Positions 5,476 to 38,495 of a stretch of DNA of 38,495 nt are shown here, piece by piece. Position numbers and translations under genes: made by a program. The notes beneath the pieces are model-generated. The model did no database searches. It worked only from the letters and a program-made list of their open reading frames with translations, and was not told the origin of the DNA. The DNA lies in NCBI GenBank assembly GCA_001632435.1, contig KV424138.1, positions 1-38,495 on the forward strand, in the 5' to 3' direction. Each line of letters starts with the position of its first letter. Position 1 is the stretch's first letter. The DNA is from Calocera cornea HHB12733 (lineage: Eukaryota; Basidiomycota; Dacrymycetes; Dacrymycetales; Dacrymycetaceae).

Positions 5476-5877
5476 TCGACACAGATCCTAAACGGAAGCA
5501 GTTTTTGGAGGCAAAACCACAGATCACAGATGCTAACGCAGACCGTAGGATGCACGCACACACCCCTCCTAGATCCTAGATTTGTCACGTGCCTGACACA
5601 GATCACGCAATGTGCAAATTAGGGGTCCTCCAGAGGCTGTGCCATTGTTTACCCAAGGAAGCAAATTGCAGGGCATTTGTATGCCCAGGCAGGCGCTCCA
5701 TGTGAAGATGTGCTTCCGTGAGGGTCTAGGAGAGCAGAAAAGATCTAGGAGAGGGGGGGGGACCCCTCTCCTAGATTCGACATCTAGGACGGACGATAAG
5801 CAGTCTAGGAGTGCTCCGGAGTTTGAATTTTGACAGCGGCACCTCGGCAGACCCTGTGTGGCGCATCTAGGACACTC

Positions 5878-5912
5878 AAAATCTAGGATCTAGGTCTACG
5901 GCAAGTCATCCA
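5878..5912 (-). repeat. Right terminal inverted repeat of MITE-like element
   Basis: This is the inverted partner of 5441-5475, with one mismatch over 35 bases. It ends GGCAAGTCATCCA on the plus strand. Confidence 0.85.
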
Positions 5913-26580: not shown

Positions 26581-27011
26581 TCACACCGTCTGGTCAAGAG
26601 AGTCCAGAAGGGAAACCATCATTGATACTCATTGGACATTTATAGCCTGGGCTGTAGCAAAGCTTTCTTTCTTCTTAGATGTTCGGAAACTTACTGTACC
26701 TACCGTGATAATCCAACTCTTCCGCCTCTGATGAGGCATCTCCTCGTAGCAGCATCTCATAGTACTGCACACACCCTGAGACAGTCAGGGGTGACATAAG
26801 AACATTGTCGACTGATCTATGCGCCTGGAGGCATGGGGCGCCCTAGAAGCCGCCCAGGCCAACGGACCGGAAGCTGCAGTCTAACAGTGAATATGTTAGT
26901 CGTCGAGATAAGCATTGGTACTTGGAGCCCTCAACATACTCTCAATTACCGTGATAGGCAGATCGCCACACAGGTCTGAGGATGAGGTACTAGAACGCGC
27001 ACGGAGGAGTC
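26581..27011. other. Intergenic region downstream of mitochondrial paralog 2
   Basis: 431 bp with no supportable feature. Confidence 0.5.
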
Positions 27012-28338
27012 TCATGATTTCGCATTATCCGGCCAAATCTTGCGCTCTCTCAGAAACTCGTCCCTCCACTCGTGGCGCCGTCCCCAATCCTTGATCATAT
27101 CATCCTCCCACATCCCATCATCCATCCCCCCAACCGTGCTCCAAGCCATTGTTAGCCTTAACAGCCCCAGCAAGTCAACGAGGTTGCCCCGCGGTTTGGG
27201 GCGGCCCTCCGGGTCGAGCGGTATCAGCGTCAGCAGCCACGCCGCGTTCTGGTCCGTCATGAAAGAGTGGTAATAGGATCTTGGGCCGTAAGGTTCGGCC
27301 TCATTGCGCGGTCCATACACCCACTTCTCAAACGACGAGTCCGCGGGCTGTTTGCCGCTCGGATGGCCGACCCATGCGGGGAGGACGAGCGTGATCCTCT
27401 GCGACATGTACTTGAGCGTGAAGTCGGCCAGGTACACGGGCATTACCATGGGGGAGAAGCGCGGCTATCCCCCATCAGCTCCCGCACAAAAAACCGTACA
27501 TTGAACCGAAGTGTTGCACACCTGAACCACTTTCGCCCCCGGAAACACGTTCAGGCCAAGCGTCGGATATATGTGTCCCTGGACCGTCAGTTTGTTGACC
27601 AGCTTGAGCAGCTTCTGCGGGGAGACGGTGTACGGGATCGCCCCGACCTGCTCGCCCCAGGGGGTTGTGAGCATCGAGCGCGTGAACGGCATGAAGCGGA
27701 CGTCGGCGTGATGATACTCCTCTGAAAGCCAGCACGAGCGTAACGGATGGTGCGCATGGCCCGGCATGGACCTGCACACCGCGTCAGTGCATCCCGCGAC
27801 CCGGGACCCGGACGATTGTCCAGGCAGGGATACACACCCGCTCAACCTGGCCAGTTCGTGCAGCGTCCGATCGGGCCCCGTACCGGGCTTGTACCGCTCC
27901 CCCAACTGCTCGTACCGCACCTCCACGCCTGCGAGCACGCGCCACATGGGCACGTACATGGGCCGCATCTTACTCATCTCCCATTTGAAATCCCTAGTGC
28001 ACACTTCAGCATCGTTTTGGCCGTGATTGGGCGCAAGGGGAGGCTCACGTATCGGATATATGGGTCTGAAGAACAGATCCCCAGTCGTAGACGGCCCAAT
28101 AGTACTTGAGTGCGGACCACCAATCGACCGCACGGAGCAGGCTGGAATGCGCGAGGTACTGCTGAAAGGCGCGCTGTGCGTCCGCTGGGGAGAGCGTGAA
28201 CGGGAGGGCGTTCACTTTGCGGTGATAGGGGGAGGAAGAGGCAGCGCTGCCGCTGCCGCTACTCGTGGCATACTGTCGTGAAAGGACCGTACGACGCCCC
28301 GCGGATGGTGGGCGTCGTGGTCGTATTCGAGGACGCAT
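27012..28338 (-). CDS. Uncharacterised probable mitochondrial protein, paralog 2, 382 aa
   Basis: Four exons, transcribed 28338-28049, 27993-27838, 27771-27522 and 27464-27012 (introns 55, 66 and 57 nt), give 382 aa. The basic leader MRPRIRPRRPPSAGRRTVLS ends in RQYATSSGS, a textbook R-x-Y/A mitochondrial processing-peptidase motif. The body has YHRKVNALPFTLSPADAQRA, KMRPMYVPMWRVLAGVEVRY, GHAHHPLRSCWLSEEY, FTRSMLTTPWGEQVGAIPYT, PRFSPMVMPVYLADF, ITLVLPAWVGHPSGK and GGMDDGMWEDDM. It is closest to the plus-strand paralog at 31976-33325, sharing intron positions and most blocks. The chosen ATG is the one aligned with the paralog leader rather than an upstream in-frame one. Function is unknown; no transmembrane segment is obvious. 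Confidence 0.85.
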
Positions 28339-31975: not shown

Positions 31976-33325
31976 ATGCATATACGTCCTCGAACGCGAC
32001 TACGACGACCAACATGCCTTGCACGTCCCCCACGCGTGCTCTGCGCACGACAGTATGCGACGGCCGACACCACCACCACCACCACCACTGCCGCGTCCCC
32101 CTCCCCCTATCATCCCAAAGTGACCGCCCGCCCGTTCACCGTCTCCCCTGCGGAGGCGGCGACCGCCTTTGAGCAGTACATCGACCCGCGAGGGTGGCTC
32201 CAGTATGTGCGGCCCTATTCCGATGACCAGCTCTGGAACTCGTACACCGTGTAAGCTTATCTGCCCCGAGCGATCGCGGTGTGAAGCTGACGAGCGCAAG
32301 CTGGACCGGACTCAGCGCCTACCGGTGGGAGATGGTCAAGATGCGGCCCATGTACGTGCCGATGTGGCGCGTGCTCACAGGCGTGGAACTGTTGTTTGAG
32401 CAGGTGGGGGAGGTCTCTAACCCAGGGACGGGAGAGGATAGGCCCGGGCGCGAAGTGGCTTGCATGACCGGGTGAGTAACTATCCTGTCTACCGATGGGA
32501 GTGATCGGCGGTTGGGATTTGGGGGAGGGCGGGAGACGCTGACGCTGATGCTGCTCCCAGGCTCATGCACGGTCATGCGCACCACCCGCTGAGGACGTGC
32601 TGGTTGTCTGAGGGATATCACAAGGACTTCCCCTTCGCGCAGTTCTCACCCTCAATGCTCACCACCCCGTGGGGCGAGCATGTCGGCGCGATCCCCTACA
32701 CCGTTTCCCCGCTGAAGCTGCTCGACAACCTAGCTGGTGACGCGGGGGTGGAACGTCCATACATGATGCTTGGTATGACGGTGCTTCCGGGGGCGAAAGT
32801 GGTTCAGGTGCGTTGCGTTTGCTCCGCTCCAGAGTGTGTTGTTGGGCGCGGGCGCTGACGAAGCAAGCGGGGCAGCCGCGCTTTTCGCCGTTGGTCGTGC
32901 CGGTGTACCTCGCCGAATTCGCGCGCAAGCACGACTCGATCAGGAGCACACTCGTTCTCCCGGCATGGGTCGACGATCCCACTGGCAAGCATCCTGCAGA
33001 GAGCTCCTATGCTCCGTATGTCTACGGACCGCAATTCAAGCAAGACCCAGAGGCGGGTCTCGCACCGTATCGCTCTGCTATGAAGGACAAGCTAGCGTGG
33101 GCTATCTCGCTGTATCATCTGTACCCGCAATATTCACCAAAACGATTGGCCACGCACATCAAGCTAAATCTCTATACGGGGCACTACATGCGTTGGGGGG
33201 AAGTTGGGGGCGTGGACAACGACATGTGGGAGGACACAAGGATTCTTTCCGCCCTTTCGACGAAGTGGGGAGACCGTCGGAAGGTGGTGTATGACGAGAT
33301 TCAGTCTCATCCGGGTCACCCTTGA
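31976..33325 (+). CDS. Uncharacterised probable mitochondrial protein, paralog 3, 380 aa
   Basis: Four exons: 31976-32250, 32301-32471, 32561-32807 and 32876-33325 (introns 50, 89 and 68 nt), giving 380 aa. The leader MHIRPRTRLRRPTCLARPPR continues to ARQYATAD (R-x-Y/A cleavage motif), followed by a run of seven Thr. Conserved blocks are YHPKVTARPFTVSPAEAATA, KMRPMYVPMWRVLTGVELLF, HGHAHHPLRTCWLSEGY, FSPSMLTTPWGEHVGAIPYT, PRFSPLVVPVYLAEF, STLVLPAWVDDPTGKHPAES and GGVDNDMWEDTR. Intron positions equal those of paralog 2, and the 247-nt third exon equals the second exon of paralog 1 in length. Orientation is opposite to the other two. The family is unrecognised. Confidence 0.85.
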
Positions 33326-33838
33326 GATTCTGTAGGAGGATGAGTTGAGCGTACTGTGCAGGGAACCGTTTATCTATACGCCGTGGGGAGGCTGTTGTAC
33401 CTGTGGACAATGTCCCTTCCGCAGGGGGGCTTTATACGGCGGTTGAGACCGCAGCGTATTTGCCCGCTCGCCCTTTCGATTACAACGGTAGAATAATAAC
33501 GGTCAAGCCCATGTCGTGCGGGTCGTATATTAACTAGCCGTGTTTCTCTCCCCTTGAGTGGGGTCTCTTGGTCTTTGCTTGCTCGCGCGATGCGAATCCC
33601 ATCCATGATCCTTGATGCCCACTTATCTACCACGCTGCGCATTTGGCAGTCGATACCAGCTCACTTGGGCCGCTGCACCTGTATCTCCGAGCTACAGCGG
33701 GCAAATTAGCCGGCGCAGCGAACACCGTTCCCCTCCCAAATTTGCCAGGGCCCATCACTGCTTCCTCATTCCAGCAAAAATCCAGCGAAATGAAGGGTCA
33801 CCCGGCGGCCGGCGCCACTACAATGTCACCCGGCGTTA
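33326..33838. other. Intergenic DNA up to the CANTG-dense segment
   Basis: No gene seen. The density of CANTG words is near background until about 33750 and rises sharply from about 33841. Confidence 0.5.
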
Positions 33839-33989
33839 GTCATTGAGCATCGCCACGGTCTATCAATGGGGCATTGGGCATTGCAGGCAGAAGGGGAATA
33901 ATGTACCGTAGAATTAGGAGACATAGTAGGTATATACAAGAAGTAGCATAACTAGTATGATAACACTACTACTATACAACGACGCATTG

Positions 33990-35490
33990 CTAAATCTGAG
34001 CATTGATCAGTTCCAAAGGAAAACCAACCATGCCGGGTGTGAAGGTAACAGTGTTGGTCAGGTCAACGAGCGGTGCACGTTGCAGCATTGCTGGTCCTGC
34101 AGGGGTTAGGACGGCGGGTAGGTGGTCCACATTGCGCGCTGCTGCAGTGTCCGCCAGCTTCAATCTCTTTCGTGCGTGAGAGGTTGAAGCCATGTTCAAT
34201 GGTCGGTCTTCGTTGTGGACGGGCAGTGAACGCTTTGCCGATATTGCCTTGCTCGCTTCACGCTGTTCAGCCGCAGCCGTCCTCTTCTCCTTAGCTAGCG
34301 TCAATTCTTGCTCACGGACCACTGCTCGCTGCTGAATCTCGATAGTCGTCATCTGCCTGAAGAAGCAAGCACCATCGTCCAATGCTGCCCGGATCTTGTC
34401 AAGCTCAGCGATGTTTGACACCTCGGAAGGATTCTTCAAGGAGGGCAATGGCCAGCCCTGCAGAGTTATTCGGTACCGGTCTTCAATGTCTCTGCCGAAT
34501 TGCTTGTAGGACATTGTACGTGCTGGATCATTTGTAATGAGTTCTAGAGCCAGTGGTCAGTACTAGGATGAAGGGCAATGGGCAATGCTCACGGAGGCGT
34601 TCAGACAGAGTGAACCTAATATATGATTTCAATGCACACATGCGCTTTGCTGTACTTTCTGCAAGGCCTGCATTGCACATGAGCATTGCCCCACAGCGCC
34701 TTGCCACATTGAACATACCTCTGGCTCCCCCACTGGTGCAGAATGCTTCGAAGTTCTGTGCAAATGTGACAGGATCTGTCTTAAGCACTTCAACAAAATA
34801 GCGACGCGATAGCTCATCGCCATAGAAGGTCGGCTTCGCAGTGTCCTTGATGTCACCTCGCACAATGAACCCACATGCGTGTCCTCCCGTACGAGAGCTG
34901 AAGGCAGCAGCCTGCATGCACATAAGTCAGAGTGCATTGCGCATTGCAGGTCTCTCGTACCTGCTCTTGGAAGGAATCGGCAGTGCGGATTGTATCTGAC
35001 TCCCGCTGCTTGTAATCAATGCGGAGTGCCACGCGCTTCTTCTCACGTTGCTCAATGTGCCTTGCTTCAGCCAGCTGCCAGGCCTCGGCATTGTTTTCCC
35101 ACTCAGCGAGCACTGCGGCAGTGCGCTGATGAACGGATGCATCAACAATGCTGAACTTCTCGTCTGTACAAAGGTCAGTGAGGTCCCCGCATTGTGTGCA
35201 CTGCAGTACGTACTGCGTTCCCTTGCCTGCGCTGCTACCCAAGACCTGGCCACATTGGCCGCATTGACCTGCCGCACTGGCTTTCCATGCCGCGCACGCC
35301 TGGTCCTCATATTGGCGATGAGAACGCGCAGTGCTACGCCAGTCTGATCGTGAATATCTTGCAGTGCTTCATTGAGCGCTGTCTCGGCTTCATCGAGGAG
35401 CTGCTCGGCCAATGCTCTCTTCTCCTGATTCGCTGCACCGATGGCTTTGCGATGCTTCCAAGACAGCTTAGATGGATCAGTTGAGGGCAT
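33990..35490 (-). CDS. Hypothetical protein G of the CANTG segment, 430 aa
   Basis: Five exons, transcribed 35490-35214, 35163-34961, 34911-34719, 34658-34593 and 34543-33990 (introns 50, 49, 60 and 49 nt), give 430 aa with every junction in frame. The N-terminal part is Lys/Ala/Glu-rich and helical (MPSTDPSKLSWKHRKAIGAA, ALAEQLLDEAETALNEALQD). The middle has FYGDELSRRYFVEVLKTDPV. The last exon has RYRITLQGWPLPSLKNPSEV then ELDKIRAALDDGACFF, resembling a GWP...NPS...L..aL..G.C pattern I associate with other basidiomycete hypothetical proteins. A helical REQELTLAKEKRTAAAEQRE stretch and a basic ARKRLKL (possible nuclear signal) follow. No enzyme motif was recognised. It lies 510 bp downstream of the next gene, in the same direction. 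Confidence 0.75.
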
Positions 35491-35608
35491 TGTCGCAGTG
35501 CTGCAATGCAGCAGAAAGGACCCGCAATGTGCAGGCCAAACAACGGATGCAATGCGCGCCGCAGGACGCACGTGACAACAGATAACATTGCATTGAGGTG
35601 AATATGTA

Positions 35609-35645
35609 TATACAGCACTGCACAGTTATACAGCACTGCACAGTG
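35609..35645 (+). repeat. Tandem 18-bp duplication TATACAGCACTGCACAGT
   Basis: Two head-to-tail copies each contain CACTG, and the following bases add CAGTG. It lies 120-155 bp upstream of the gene G start. Confidence 0.8.
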
Positions 35646-35786
35646 AGCCACGAAACTACTTGTTGTCATCGAAGGGAGAGAAAAGAACAGTGAGAGAGAG
35701 GAACGAGAGCAATGCGCGTTGTACAAGCAGGTGTCAAACATGTTTTTCTATGCGCAATGCACTATGAACCTGAGAATCGGGAAACA

Positions 35787-35877
35787 GAGGCCACGTAGAG
35801 ACAGTGGGGCAATGATCGTCATCGATACCATGGAGCATGAGAGAAATAGTCGGGAAATCGAGGCCACGTAGAGACAG
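35787..35877 (+). repeat. Direct repeat with GAGGCCACGTAGAGACAG, 72-bp spacing
   Basis: The 18-base core occurs at about 35787-35804 and 35859-35876. Each is preceded by a similar CGGGAAA(C/T) stretch, so the match extends to about 27 bases with few differences. Confidence 0.8.
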
Positions 35878-36000
35878 GCGAGCAGTGAACGTCACTGAGA
35901 GCATCGAGAATGAACAGGGCAGCGAGCAATGAGCGTGAGCGAGTGCGGAAACGGAAACACGACGAGCACTGTGCAGTGCAAATGGCGGAGAGAACAATGC

Positions 36001-38424
36001 TCAGAGCAGACCGTCCCAGAGCTGCTGAAGCCGAAGGCGGTGCATCACAGCGGTGATGGGCTCGTAGTACTCTTCGCCGAGCCAGTCATAGAGCAGTGCA
36101 TACCACTGGCGAGGGTTATCGTACCAGTAGACATTGCGCAGTTCAACGAGGCCGTTTTGGCGATCTTCAGGGCTGACGTCCAATGCCCATTCGTTGAAGA
36201 CGCGGTGCACTTCCTCAGGCAGTGCCGGAGCATCGTCCGGATTTGCAGGACGTTGCAGAACAATGGGAGCATGACCGATGGATGGAGCAATGGATACGGG
36301 GCTCTCGAGGGCGGTGAGCAATGAAGACGCCGGGCGCACTGTCGCACTGCCCCGTGGAGTAGGCGTGATAGGCGACGCCAAACTGCCTGCAGCATTGCGC
36401 ATGCGACACTGTGCTTCAGCGTCAGCAAGCATTGCTGCCTGCATATCCTTCGCATGCCGGTCGCGGATCTCAGACTGATGTTCGCGCGGTGCGGGCTGAG
36501 CAGTGTGCTTGGCATCGGGCCAATAGGGCGAGTTCCTGTCAAGCCATTGCTCGAGAGGTATCCTGTGAGCAATGCATCAGCGAACATTGAGCAGTGCAGC
36601 ACTGTACACTTACTTGTATTTCACTTGCTCAGTGGTCTTTGCCCGAGTCGTCAATTGTCCCATCACTGAATCGTAGTGCTCTGCCTTCACATCAATCATT
36701 TTCTTGAAGACGCGCTCCATGTCGCCAAGGACCCGCAAGTCGTCATTGCGAGCCCAGAACTCGCGTGAGAACAGTGTATTGACCCGTCCACCACGGTTCT
36801 GCCCATTGTCCCAACGACCAACAAACAGCGCAACACCCATTGGGCCGAGAAGACGTTCTCCAAATGCGATCTGTTTAATGAGCATTGTATCAGCACTGAA
36901 TCATGTGCAATGAACAATGCACGACGCACCAACTTGAAAACGCGATCCCAGAAAAAATTGAAATGCAGGAAACGGCGCGTTTGCAAGTTGTAGGCCTCAA
37001 ACCAGGGGTAGCGATCAATGCCCACAGCGTCGTTGTTGTCAGTGAGCACTGTTTCCCATAGGCGTGGTTCGGCATCCACACGACGAATCTCCGCTGCAAA
37101 GCTCGCTGGACGCCATGCAGTGCGCGCCTGGAACGGGCCATTGCTCAATGGACCGGTTGTGTTCATGCCGAACAGCATTTGCTGAAAGTCGAAAGTGATT
37201 GTGGGCAGGTGGTTCGCCAAACCGGTTGGCGGCAGTCCGGCGAGGTCCACGATCTGTGACACAACGGCCAGTGCTTCATCGTCGAACCCATCGAACATGT
37301 CGTCTTCATCTTCCGGGCCCGGCTGCGCTTCGCCTTGGGCAGTGGCCACTGCCTCTTCCGTTTGCGCGAGGGTCAGTGCACTCTGGAACGAGTCGCGCGG
37401 CCTGGCAGGGGTGTGCAGAGTGGCTTGGGCATTGCTCGGGCGGGGTTGAGTGGTGGGAGGGCGGGTTGCATTGCCCGGTGCATCAATGCGAGCGGGAGGC
37501 GGGACGGTCGAGGTACGGTGAGCAGTGGGAGGGTGCGACGTGCGGGCCGGAGTGCGGGTCGGCGTGGCCGTCAAAAATCGAGAGCGAGGAGCAGTGCTCG
37601 TGTGCGAGGGAGTGGGAGCACTGCTCGTATGCGAGGGAGGGGGTGCAGTGGTTCGGCGAGGGTTGGAGAGGCCGCTTCCCTCGCCAATGCGGTCACCCGG
37701 ACGGGGAGCAGGCTTCCGCTCATAGTGCGCTGTGCAATGTGTCAGTCAGTCCGCATACATGAGCATTGCACAGTGACGCACAGCCAGGAGCCTGTTGAGC
37801 GTAGAATGCATCCAGCTCTTCCTGATACCTCCTGTTCGCCTCCTCCCGCGCAGCGATATCGGCAATGCGCTGCTCCTCATCGGCAAGCGCCCTCGCAGTG
37901 AGCAGCTCCTCCATCTCCCGCGCAGCCTTTTCCCCAGGATCCTCCTCATTGGCATTGTTCAGCGCATCAACGGACATTGGGTCATCTTCAGGGGTGGGCG
38001 ATCTTGGTGGACGGGTCGCGGGGACATCGCGCATTGGAGTCGGTAAGCGTGGTCGTTCAGCATTAGTGGCATTGCGCTGTGCACTGGCCCGTGCGGGCTG
38101 GATGCGAGATGCAGGAGGGCGAAGCCCACTGGGAGTCGTCGCGCCCTGGGCAGTGCCCGACGTATCAGTGTTGTTGCTCCGGCGGCGTTGCCTAGAGCGA
38201 CCATTGCCCGCTGCAGTGCTGTCGGGGTTGTAGTCTTCGTTCGGGTCGGGGGTAATGTCCTTCCGCAAGCGGCGAGCAGGCATGTTGAGAGCAGTGTCGT
38301 ACGGCGACGAGCACTGCTCAGTGCGCAGTGTGTCGTCGAGAGGTAAGCAGTGTTCCGAAAGAGGTGAGGCAGGGTCGTAGTCAGAGGGGGAGCGATAGCG
38401 GGACGGGGGCGGAGGGGCACGCAT
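36001..38424 (-). CDS. Hypothetical protein F of the CANTG segment, 753 aa
   Basis: Four exons, transcribed 38424-37782, 37729-36930, 36870-36614 and 36562-36001 (introns 52, 59 and 51 nt), give 753 aa in one frame. Residues 1-340 are low-complexity, Pro/Arg/Ser/Thr-rich, with a helical stretch EEDPGEKAAREMEELLTARA. A compact part follows: EDEDDMFDGFDDEALAVVSQ, LPTITFDFQQMLFGMN, TVLTDNNDAVGIDRYPWFEA, LHFNFFWDRVFKL-IAFGERLL, GPMGVALFVGRWDN, NTLFSREFWARNDDLRVLGD and MERVFKKMIDVKAEHYDS. The C-terminal part has PEEVHRVFNEWALDVSPEDR and YDWLGEEYYEPITAVMHRLR. I recognise no catalytic motif or known family. The start could instead be an in-frame ATG at 38481 or one further downstream: a TATA-like CCATATAAAC lies only about 10-20 bp before the chosen ATG. 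The 5' end is close to the window edge. Confidence 0.75.
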
Positions 38425-38495
38425 TGCGGCAGTGTTTATATGGCCGGCGCACTGCGCACGGGCCACCCAGTCAATATCCAAAAAAGCAGGGGGGG

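Follow-up and report, generated by a model that had tools for sequence, protein, structure and literature searches.

The end of contig C225 (KV424138.1) of the basidiomycete Calocera cornea HHB12733, which in its full length of 38,495 nucleotides is the window analysed here, is saturated with the palindromic word CANTG and is assigned, through homology to other copies in the genome, to one end of a DNA transposon of the KDZ superfamily. Other KDZ families and a Helitron family carry words of their own. We propose, with a probability of roughly 0.45, that the CANTG words are bound by a family-specific protein which the element itself encodes and which coats its DNA, most likely for anti-silencing.

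Positions 33841–38460 hold 138 CANTG words (29.9 per kb; the density elsewhere in the window would predict 21.2), with a centre-base split of CATTG 41, CAGTG 40, CAATG 34 and CACTG 23. The flanks are dyad-symmetric, giving GNGCANTGCNC, which is spaced at one per approximately 34 bp. Dinucleotide shuffles of the segment (300) reached 33.9 ± 5.6, with a maximum of 51. Among the palindromes of the form XYNY'X', of which there are 16, no other shows a comparable excess, the runner-up being TTNAA (14 versus 7.1), and TGNCA is not raised (18 versus 21.8). The words are spread over exons, introns and intergenic DNA, Tandem Repeats Finder gives just three short arrays in the segment, and an Rfam scan at gathering thresholds returned no match. 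An initial annotation of this DNA had put the count at about 135 words and 30 per kb, with about 4 in a control kilobase at 27–28 kb (bin 27001–28000 indeed has 4), and had described the use of all four centre bases, the flank preference and a saturation that disregards coding status; all of this is borne out by the recount, and both dinucleotide and synonymous-codon shuffles are exceeded. Its treatment of the 4.6-kb segment as a unit stands on the left, where the edge is sharp (only 3 sites in 33001–33840), but not on the right, where the edge is the end of the contig and the element runs on beyond it.

A 600-base query from the segment gave an 89% match on C79 and a 77-base match on C8, both in the same 32-Mb genome, and window positions 33928–38495 align with C79 at 91% identity over 4571 columns. 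C79 is saturated from approximately 118.5 to 127.9 kb (33 CANTG per kb) and C8 from 243.0 to 253.6 kb (30 per kb, leaving out a nested insert), and the C233 locus is also CANTG-rich, so that the same excess, which the initial annotation had suggested looking for elsewhere, recurs at equal saturation in three further loci. Density is even along 10 kb of the element. An upstream exon in C79 encodes a KDZ transposase (PF18758, E = 7.5e-19), and KDZ matches lie in the CANTG-rich DNA of C8 and C233 as well. The window copy is cut off before its transposase; since the C79 DNA that it matches has the KDZ exon upstream, the window is taken to hold the end of a KDZ transposon.

No inverted repeats were found at the C79 ends, and the C8 ends gave three short 10-base matches and no terminal repeat. 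A CA..TG pair with a 6-bp direct repeat is present at C8:243018/253611; 3 six-base matches were found against 4.4 expected by chance, and none of 7 bases. Inverted repeats and target duplications were thus sought at the ends of C79 and C8, and none was convincing. The Kyakuja branch of KDZ is described, in the accessible part of one account, as having 5'-CA..TG-3' termini, no terminal inverted repeats and 7-bp target duplications (PMC12730594). Within the C8 element, approximately 1 kb at 247.17–248.14 kb (L021, about 1170–2140) is without CANTG and is probably a nested insertion. A genome search with a triple GCANTGC pattern returned 23 places; C8 was recovered, and the rest are minisatellites or, among the loci read, places without raised density. 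Two of these, C91:16650–16860 and C241:10339–10471, are 14-bp minisatellites with GCAGTGC, unrelated to the element.

The genome contains 51 KDZ exon matches. A scan of 400 dyad words against dinucleotide shuffles covered 28 KDZ loci of approximately 3.4 kb each (L027–L056, L053 and L054 being left out for their overlap with L038 and L039); longer stretches were read at C79, C8, C103, C233 and most of one Helitron, together with one Helitron piece and one Copia piece. The best dyad word reached a z-score of at least 5.5 in 25 of the 28 loci, whereas control pieces of equal length stayed at or below 5.0 in 17 of 19 cases, and the remaining two (10.4 and 8.2) adjoin the C79 element and come from a Helitron that has a word of its own. 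Among the KDZ elements, the words are CANTG; TCTAGATCTAGA; TCNNGA; GCTGCNGCAGC, with the short form TGCNGCA; TCATGATCATGA; GGCCGGCCGGCC, with the short form GGCCGGCC; CGTACG; and ACGT, which occurs as AACGTT or GACGTC. In an IQ-TREE phylogeny of 29 rows (the 28 loci and C79), CANTG, TCTAGA, TGCNGCA and TCATGA each form a clade, the GGCNNGCC rows stand together with one CGTACG row among them, and L041, a locus without a word, falls with the ACGT rows; a single locus each represents TCNNGA and CGTACG, and TCTAGA is placed next to CANTG with weak support (85/35). On this phylogeny, word and transposase clade go together. Some rows have an identical partner on another contig, possibly one locus assembled twice; the near-identical KDZ pairs C10/C37, C233/C265 and C103/C238 indicate that the assembly may hold some loci in duplicate. 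Two wordless loci on C10 and C37 have TCTTGC in excess, yet one control piece has a similar 6-mer score.

The words are concentrated in the elements. CTAGNTCTAGA occurs at 86 places in 32 Mb, 38 in C103:108009–118407, 38 in C238:1170–11568 and 10 elsewhere; the word maps of the two intervals are mirror-image identical, and both surround KDZ matches. TCATGATCATGA occurs at 111 places and its reversed form at 10; among the 50 places listed for TCATGATCATGA, 48 fall in three clusters at or beside KDZ matches (C12, C13 and C34) and 2 on C17. The Helitron adjoining the C79 KDZ element (L020:400–8600; C79, about 128.0–136.2 kb) has Helitron_like_N (E = 4.3e-25) and PIF1 (E = 7.7e-17) domains and is saturated with ACNNTGCGCANNGT, with 37 copies of TGCGCA in 9.4 kb. 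Genome-wide, ACNNTGCGCANNGT occurs 161 times and its reversed form 37 times; among the 50 listed places of ACNNTGCGCANNGT, 22 lie in C36:184214–192463, 6 on C34 at 173–175 kb and 22 are scattered, and the C36 interval surrounds a Helitron_like_N match and is thus a second Helitron locus with this word. Such words are not a feature of every transposon: no dyad above 4.6 was found in the Copia piece (1.8 kb), the mariner/Copia tail of C8 or the C8 nested insert, where 1.7-kb pieces of the window element and the C79 Helitron give 11.0 and 8.2. The genome has 74 matches to Plavaka transposase (PF18759) and 36 to Helitron_like_N (PF14214) in 32 Mb.

The excess persists when the encoded protein is held constant. 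Exons of gene 3 of the window element (Table 1) contain 30 CANTG in 1302 bases, against 9.8 ± 2.6 (maximum 19) in 500 synonymous-codon shuffles, and none is in phase CAN-TGN, which would force a Cys, a Trp codon or a stop. Synonymous shuffles were likewise exceeded by TGCGCA in the C79 Helitron (10 versus 1.7 in the helicase frame, 8 versus 1.4 in the Rep frame), by TGCNGCA in a transposase frame of its family (6 versus 1.3), by CANTG in the L038 transposase frame (14 versus 8.2) and by TCTAGA in C103 gene 3 (5 versus 0.6). An alignment of C79 with C8 (68% identity, 2255 columns) shows conservation of 33 of 61 CANTG sites, compared with 53 of 217 composition-matched sites (p = 2e-5); the aligned copies hold 61 and 66 sites, about half of them at new positions, with density constant. 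Retention also exceeds controls between the window and C8 (8 of 17 versus 11 of 57, p = 0.03) and between the window and C79 at 91% identity (125 of 134 versus 264 of 324, p = 9e-4). In other families, where shared fractions were taken over non-independent pairs, word and control give 0.64 and 0.37 for TCATGA, 0.34 and 0.10 for GCCGGC, 0.50 and 0.34 for ACGT, and 0.49 and 0.00 for GGCNNGCC, whose control comprises 28 sites only. Given this coding excess, and retention above controls alongside turnover of sites, the DNA word itself appears to be selected.

Table 1. Features of the CANTG-saturated end of the window (window coordinates).
Feature	Position	Strand	Basis or content
Truncated KDZ-type DNA transposon (assigned), CANTG-saturated	33841..38495	.	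CANTG density; 91% identity to C79; runs past contig end
Gene 3 (companion gene) with five exons	33990..35490	-	hand-spliced against C103 homologue
Gene 3 exons 1–5	35214-35490, 34961-35163, 34719-34911, 34593-34667, 33990-34543	-	
Four introns of gene 3 (stretch 34544..35213)	34544-34592, 34668-34718, 34912-34960, 35164-35213	-	11 CANTG in 199 bases
DNA between gene 3 and gene 2 frames	35491..36000	.	20 CANTG in 510 bases
Gene 2 open frames (within 36001..38493)	36001-36576, 36696-37745, 37720-38493	-	71 CANTG in 36001-38460

The three gene 2 frames have no Pfam match. Exons 1–4 of gene 3 (277, 203, 193 and 75 bases) have the same lengths in the C103 homologue, that is, in two word families, and exon 3 is also present in other KDZ elements. 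At C79, C8, C10, C103/C238 and C35 the KDZ match is followed, approximately 5 to 7 kb downstream, by a gene 3 exon, and the KDZ loci bearing it belong to the CANTG, TCTAGA and TCNNGA families and include the wordless C10 locus. Of the 10 gene 3 matches in the genome, those on C147, in the window, on C199 and at C13:241590 have no KDZ match nearby; the C147 exon, on a second contig, is identical to that of the window. Outside this genome, homologues were found in Dacryopinax primogenitus only, with a predicted structure at a predicted local distance difference test score (pLDDT) of 40. The Dacryopinax protein (P0002) has LDLDLD tracts, encodable by CTAGAT repeats, and the TCTAGA word may occur in that species too. 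Gene 3 is a candidate for the protein that reads the word, its DNA-binding nature being weakly supported. Elsewhere in the window, the non-palindromic TCCTAGA is clustered on both strands at 5567–5889, with 9 of its 10 window copies within approximately 320 bases.

These patterns would be accounted for by an element-encoded DNA-binding protein that binds CANTG (GNGCANTGCNC) repeated along the whole element and that, because the words are palindromic, is probably a dimer. Other KDZ families and the Helitron family would have their own words and presumably their own reader proteins. That the words follow transposase clades suggests an element-encoded reader, and a density that is kept while positions shift, in exons and introns alike, is what would be expected if many sites were needed and no single one were critical. 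The bound protein would mark or open the chromatin of its own element, the most likely use being sequence-specific anti-silencing against host cytosine methylation, as with VANC in plant VANDALs. Somewhat more tentatively, unrelated transposons (KDZ and Helitron) may each write their own word through their bodies, genes included, to be read by their own protein; such a self-tagging code would keep families apart and open or protect own copies only, and word and reader would change together when a family splits.

The observed/expected ratio of CpG (o/e) is 0.26 in the C79 copy and 0.21 in the C8 copy. By contrast, the window copy stands at 0.91 and the DNA around it at 0.93. Because of this difference, and with 7 DNA methylase matches above cut-off in the genome, some copies were probably methylated and decayed and others not. 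Across the KDZ loci, o/e is at least 0.74 in 25 of 28 and at most 0.51 in L028, L032 and L046.

Several observations weigh against a family-specific protein that protects its element, or lend it no help. The CpG-decayed C79 and C8 copies still bear CANTG, which means that carrying the word is not protection in itself; in L041, where a word is lacking, o/e is 0.90, and intact CpG is therefore no proof of the word's role. L029, L030 and L041 (3 of the 28 KDZ loci) have no dyad word at a z-score of 5.5 or more, and the 1.6-kb C99 Helitron piece has no dyad above 4.6. For CTAGNTCTAGA the reversed control is equally frequent (39/41 versus 42/44 for the pattern), leaving clustering alone to count as evidence there. 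Synonymous shuffles are not decisive for TCATGA in L051 (3 versus 1.2, maximum 4), GCCGGC in L033 (3 versus 1.6, maximum 6) or, in the C103 gene, CTAG (10 versus 7.4, maximum 13) and TAGNNCTA (2 versus 0.4, maximum 3); GGCNNGCC in L033 (5) and TCNNGA in L034 (9) are level with the highest shuffle. The shared fraction of TGCNGCA is 0.90 against 0.89 for its control, in pairs at 96–97% identity. Among the elements, gene 3 was found in a single KDZ clade only, and not near the remaining word families; HTH_3 is matched at E = 0.15 in the C103 gene 3 protein and not at all in that of the window, and the predicted structure of exon 1 is one long helix plus a short one, with a predicted template-modelling score (pTM) of 0.41. 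Finally, binding by a protein, the part given to gene 3 and the anti-silencing purpose are all inferred.

The words could instead be sites of the transposition machinery itself (the transposase, or Rep in the Helitron), spread out for compacting excised DNA or for target immunity, by which a family would avoid inserting into copies of itself. The word tracks the transposase tree, the elements encode transposase or Rep/helicase, and self-recognition would be needed in both superfamilies; known transposase sites, however, lie near element ends, whereas density here is even along 10 kb, and we consider this account rather unlikely. It is improbable that an enzyme encoded by the element modifies DNA at the word so as to mark it as self. 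Palindromic cores of 4–6 bp do resemble restriction–modification sites, and families differ in their word, but no methyltransferase or dioxygenase domain was found in the part of the element frames that was scanned, and the two Tet_JBP matches in the genome are both below cut-off.

The reader might instead be a host protein, acting in silencing or in expression, and this might be why the elements carry the words, since all the words occur in one genome and host DNA-binding specificities are many. Sites that served silencing would be expected to disappear, but CANTG survives more often than controls (33/61 versus 53/217 between C79 and C8); expression sites need not fill exons, and one word per transposase clade better fits a reader encoded by the element, all of which makes a host reader quite improbable. 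Highly improbable, in our view, is a by-product of biased mutation, slippage, CpG decay or repeated peptides, even though TCATGATCATGA and TCTAGATCTAGA resemble short hexamer repeats, CpG decay yields CA and TG, and 38 of 163 C79 sites have no counterpart in the aligned window copy. CpG decay was rejected as the origin of CANTG, since the window copy shows the excess with its CpG intact and without a rise in TGNCA. Nor would a by-product lead one to expect a free centre base, words that differ among families of one genome, an excess over synonymous shuffles, retention above controls, or a segment with so few tandem arrays.

The closest known parallel to the proposed binding by a family-specific protein lies in plants. 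VANDALs are Mutator-like plant elements whose motifs are reported to be non-coding and arranged as tandem repeats. The elements described here are, by their domains, KDZ and Helitron, reside in a fungus and are not Mutator-like, and their words are palindromic, dispersed and present in exons as well as introns. As far as the accessible parts of the reports extend, VANC proteins bind to words specific to the VANDAL family concerned and bring about methylation loss; in Arabidopsis, too, a DNA transposon family amasses its own short motif, motifs differ between related families, and motif and reader are thought to co-evolve (PMC5735166, PMC10398659). Binding and demethylation are described for the plant system and are putative here. 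The accumulated family-specific motif is thus shared, whereas the Mutator-like type and the non-coding tandem motifs are both absent, and the present elements are therefore not classed with VANDALs, although they may work alike.

KDZ stands for Kyakuja–Dileera–Zisupton, a superfamily some of whose members carry TET/JBP genes, for which an anti-silencing role is discussed in the accessible part of PMC12730594. The elements here share with those the KDZ transposase domain and a fungal host, but that part makes no mention of internal words, and Tet_JBP is below cut-off here. Among systems with repeated words, the present case differs in extent from one and in setting from another. CACTA/EnSpm transposons have subterminal arrays of a short protein-binding motif, likewise in many copies but confined to the ends, whereas here the whole element is covered. 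The DNA uptake sequences of Neisseriaceae are also a dispersed short word with lineage dialects, but they are bacterial, chromosome-wide, linked to uptake and not tied to one mobile element.

A search of titles and the starts of abstracts, with most subscription journals and preprints outside its reach, turned up no account of such words in either KDZ elements or Helitrons. The suggestion in the initial annotation of an undescribed system survives for the site, which lies in the DNA irrespective of coding and is kept beyond matched controls, but not for the element, which falls in a known superfamily. Of the reasons that the annotation offered for the saturation, namely binding by an element-encoded protein, a methylation target that marks self, or packaging along the element, any may apply, and the first is preferred here. 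Nor is CANTG singular; its excess is real, but it is one of at least eight words in KDZ families, with one more in Helitrons.

The finding touches the open question of how a mobile element is recognized as a unit and escapes silencing selectively. To our knowledge, self-exemption from host silencing without unlocking other elements has one worked answer, VANC in plants. With nine words, two superfamilies and both CpG-decayed and CpG-intact copies in one fungus, sequence can show how words are chosen, how densely they are set and how they change, and a DNA-binding specificity can be predicted from each of them. Coding sequence bent by a dense DNA code also bears on gene finding and on tests of codon usage and selection in transposons.

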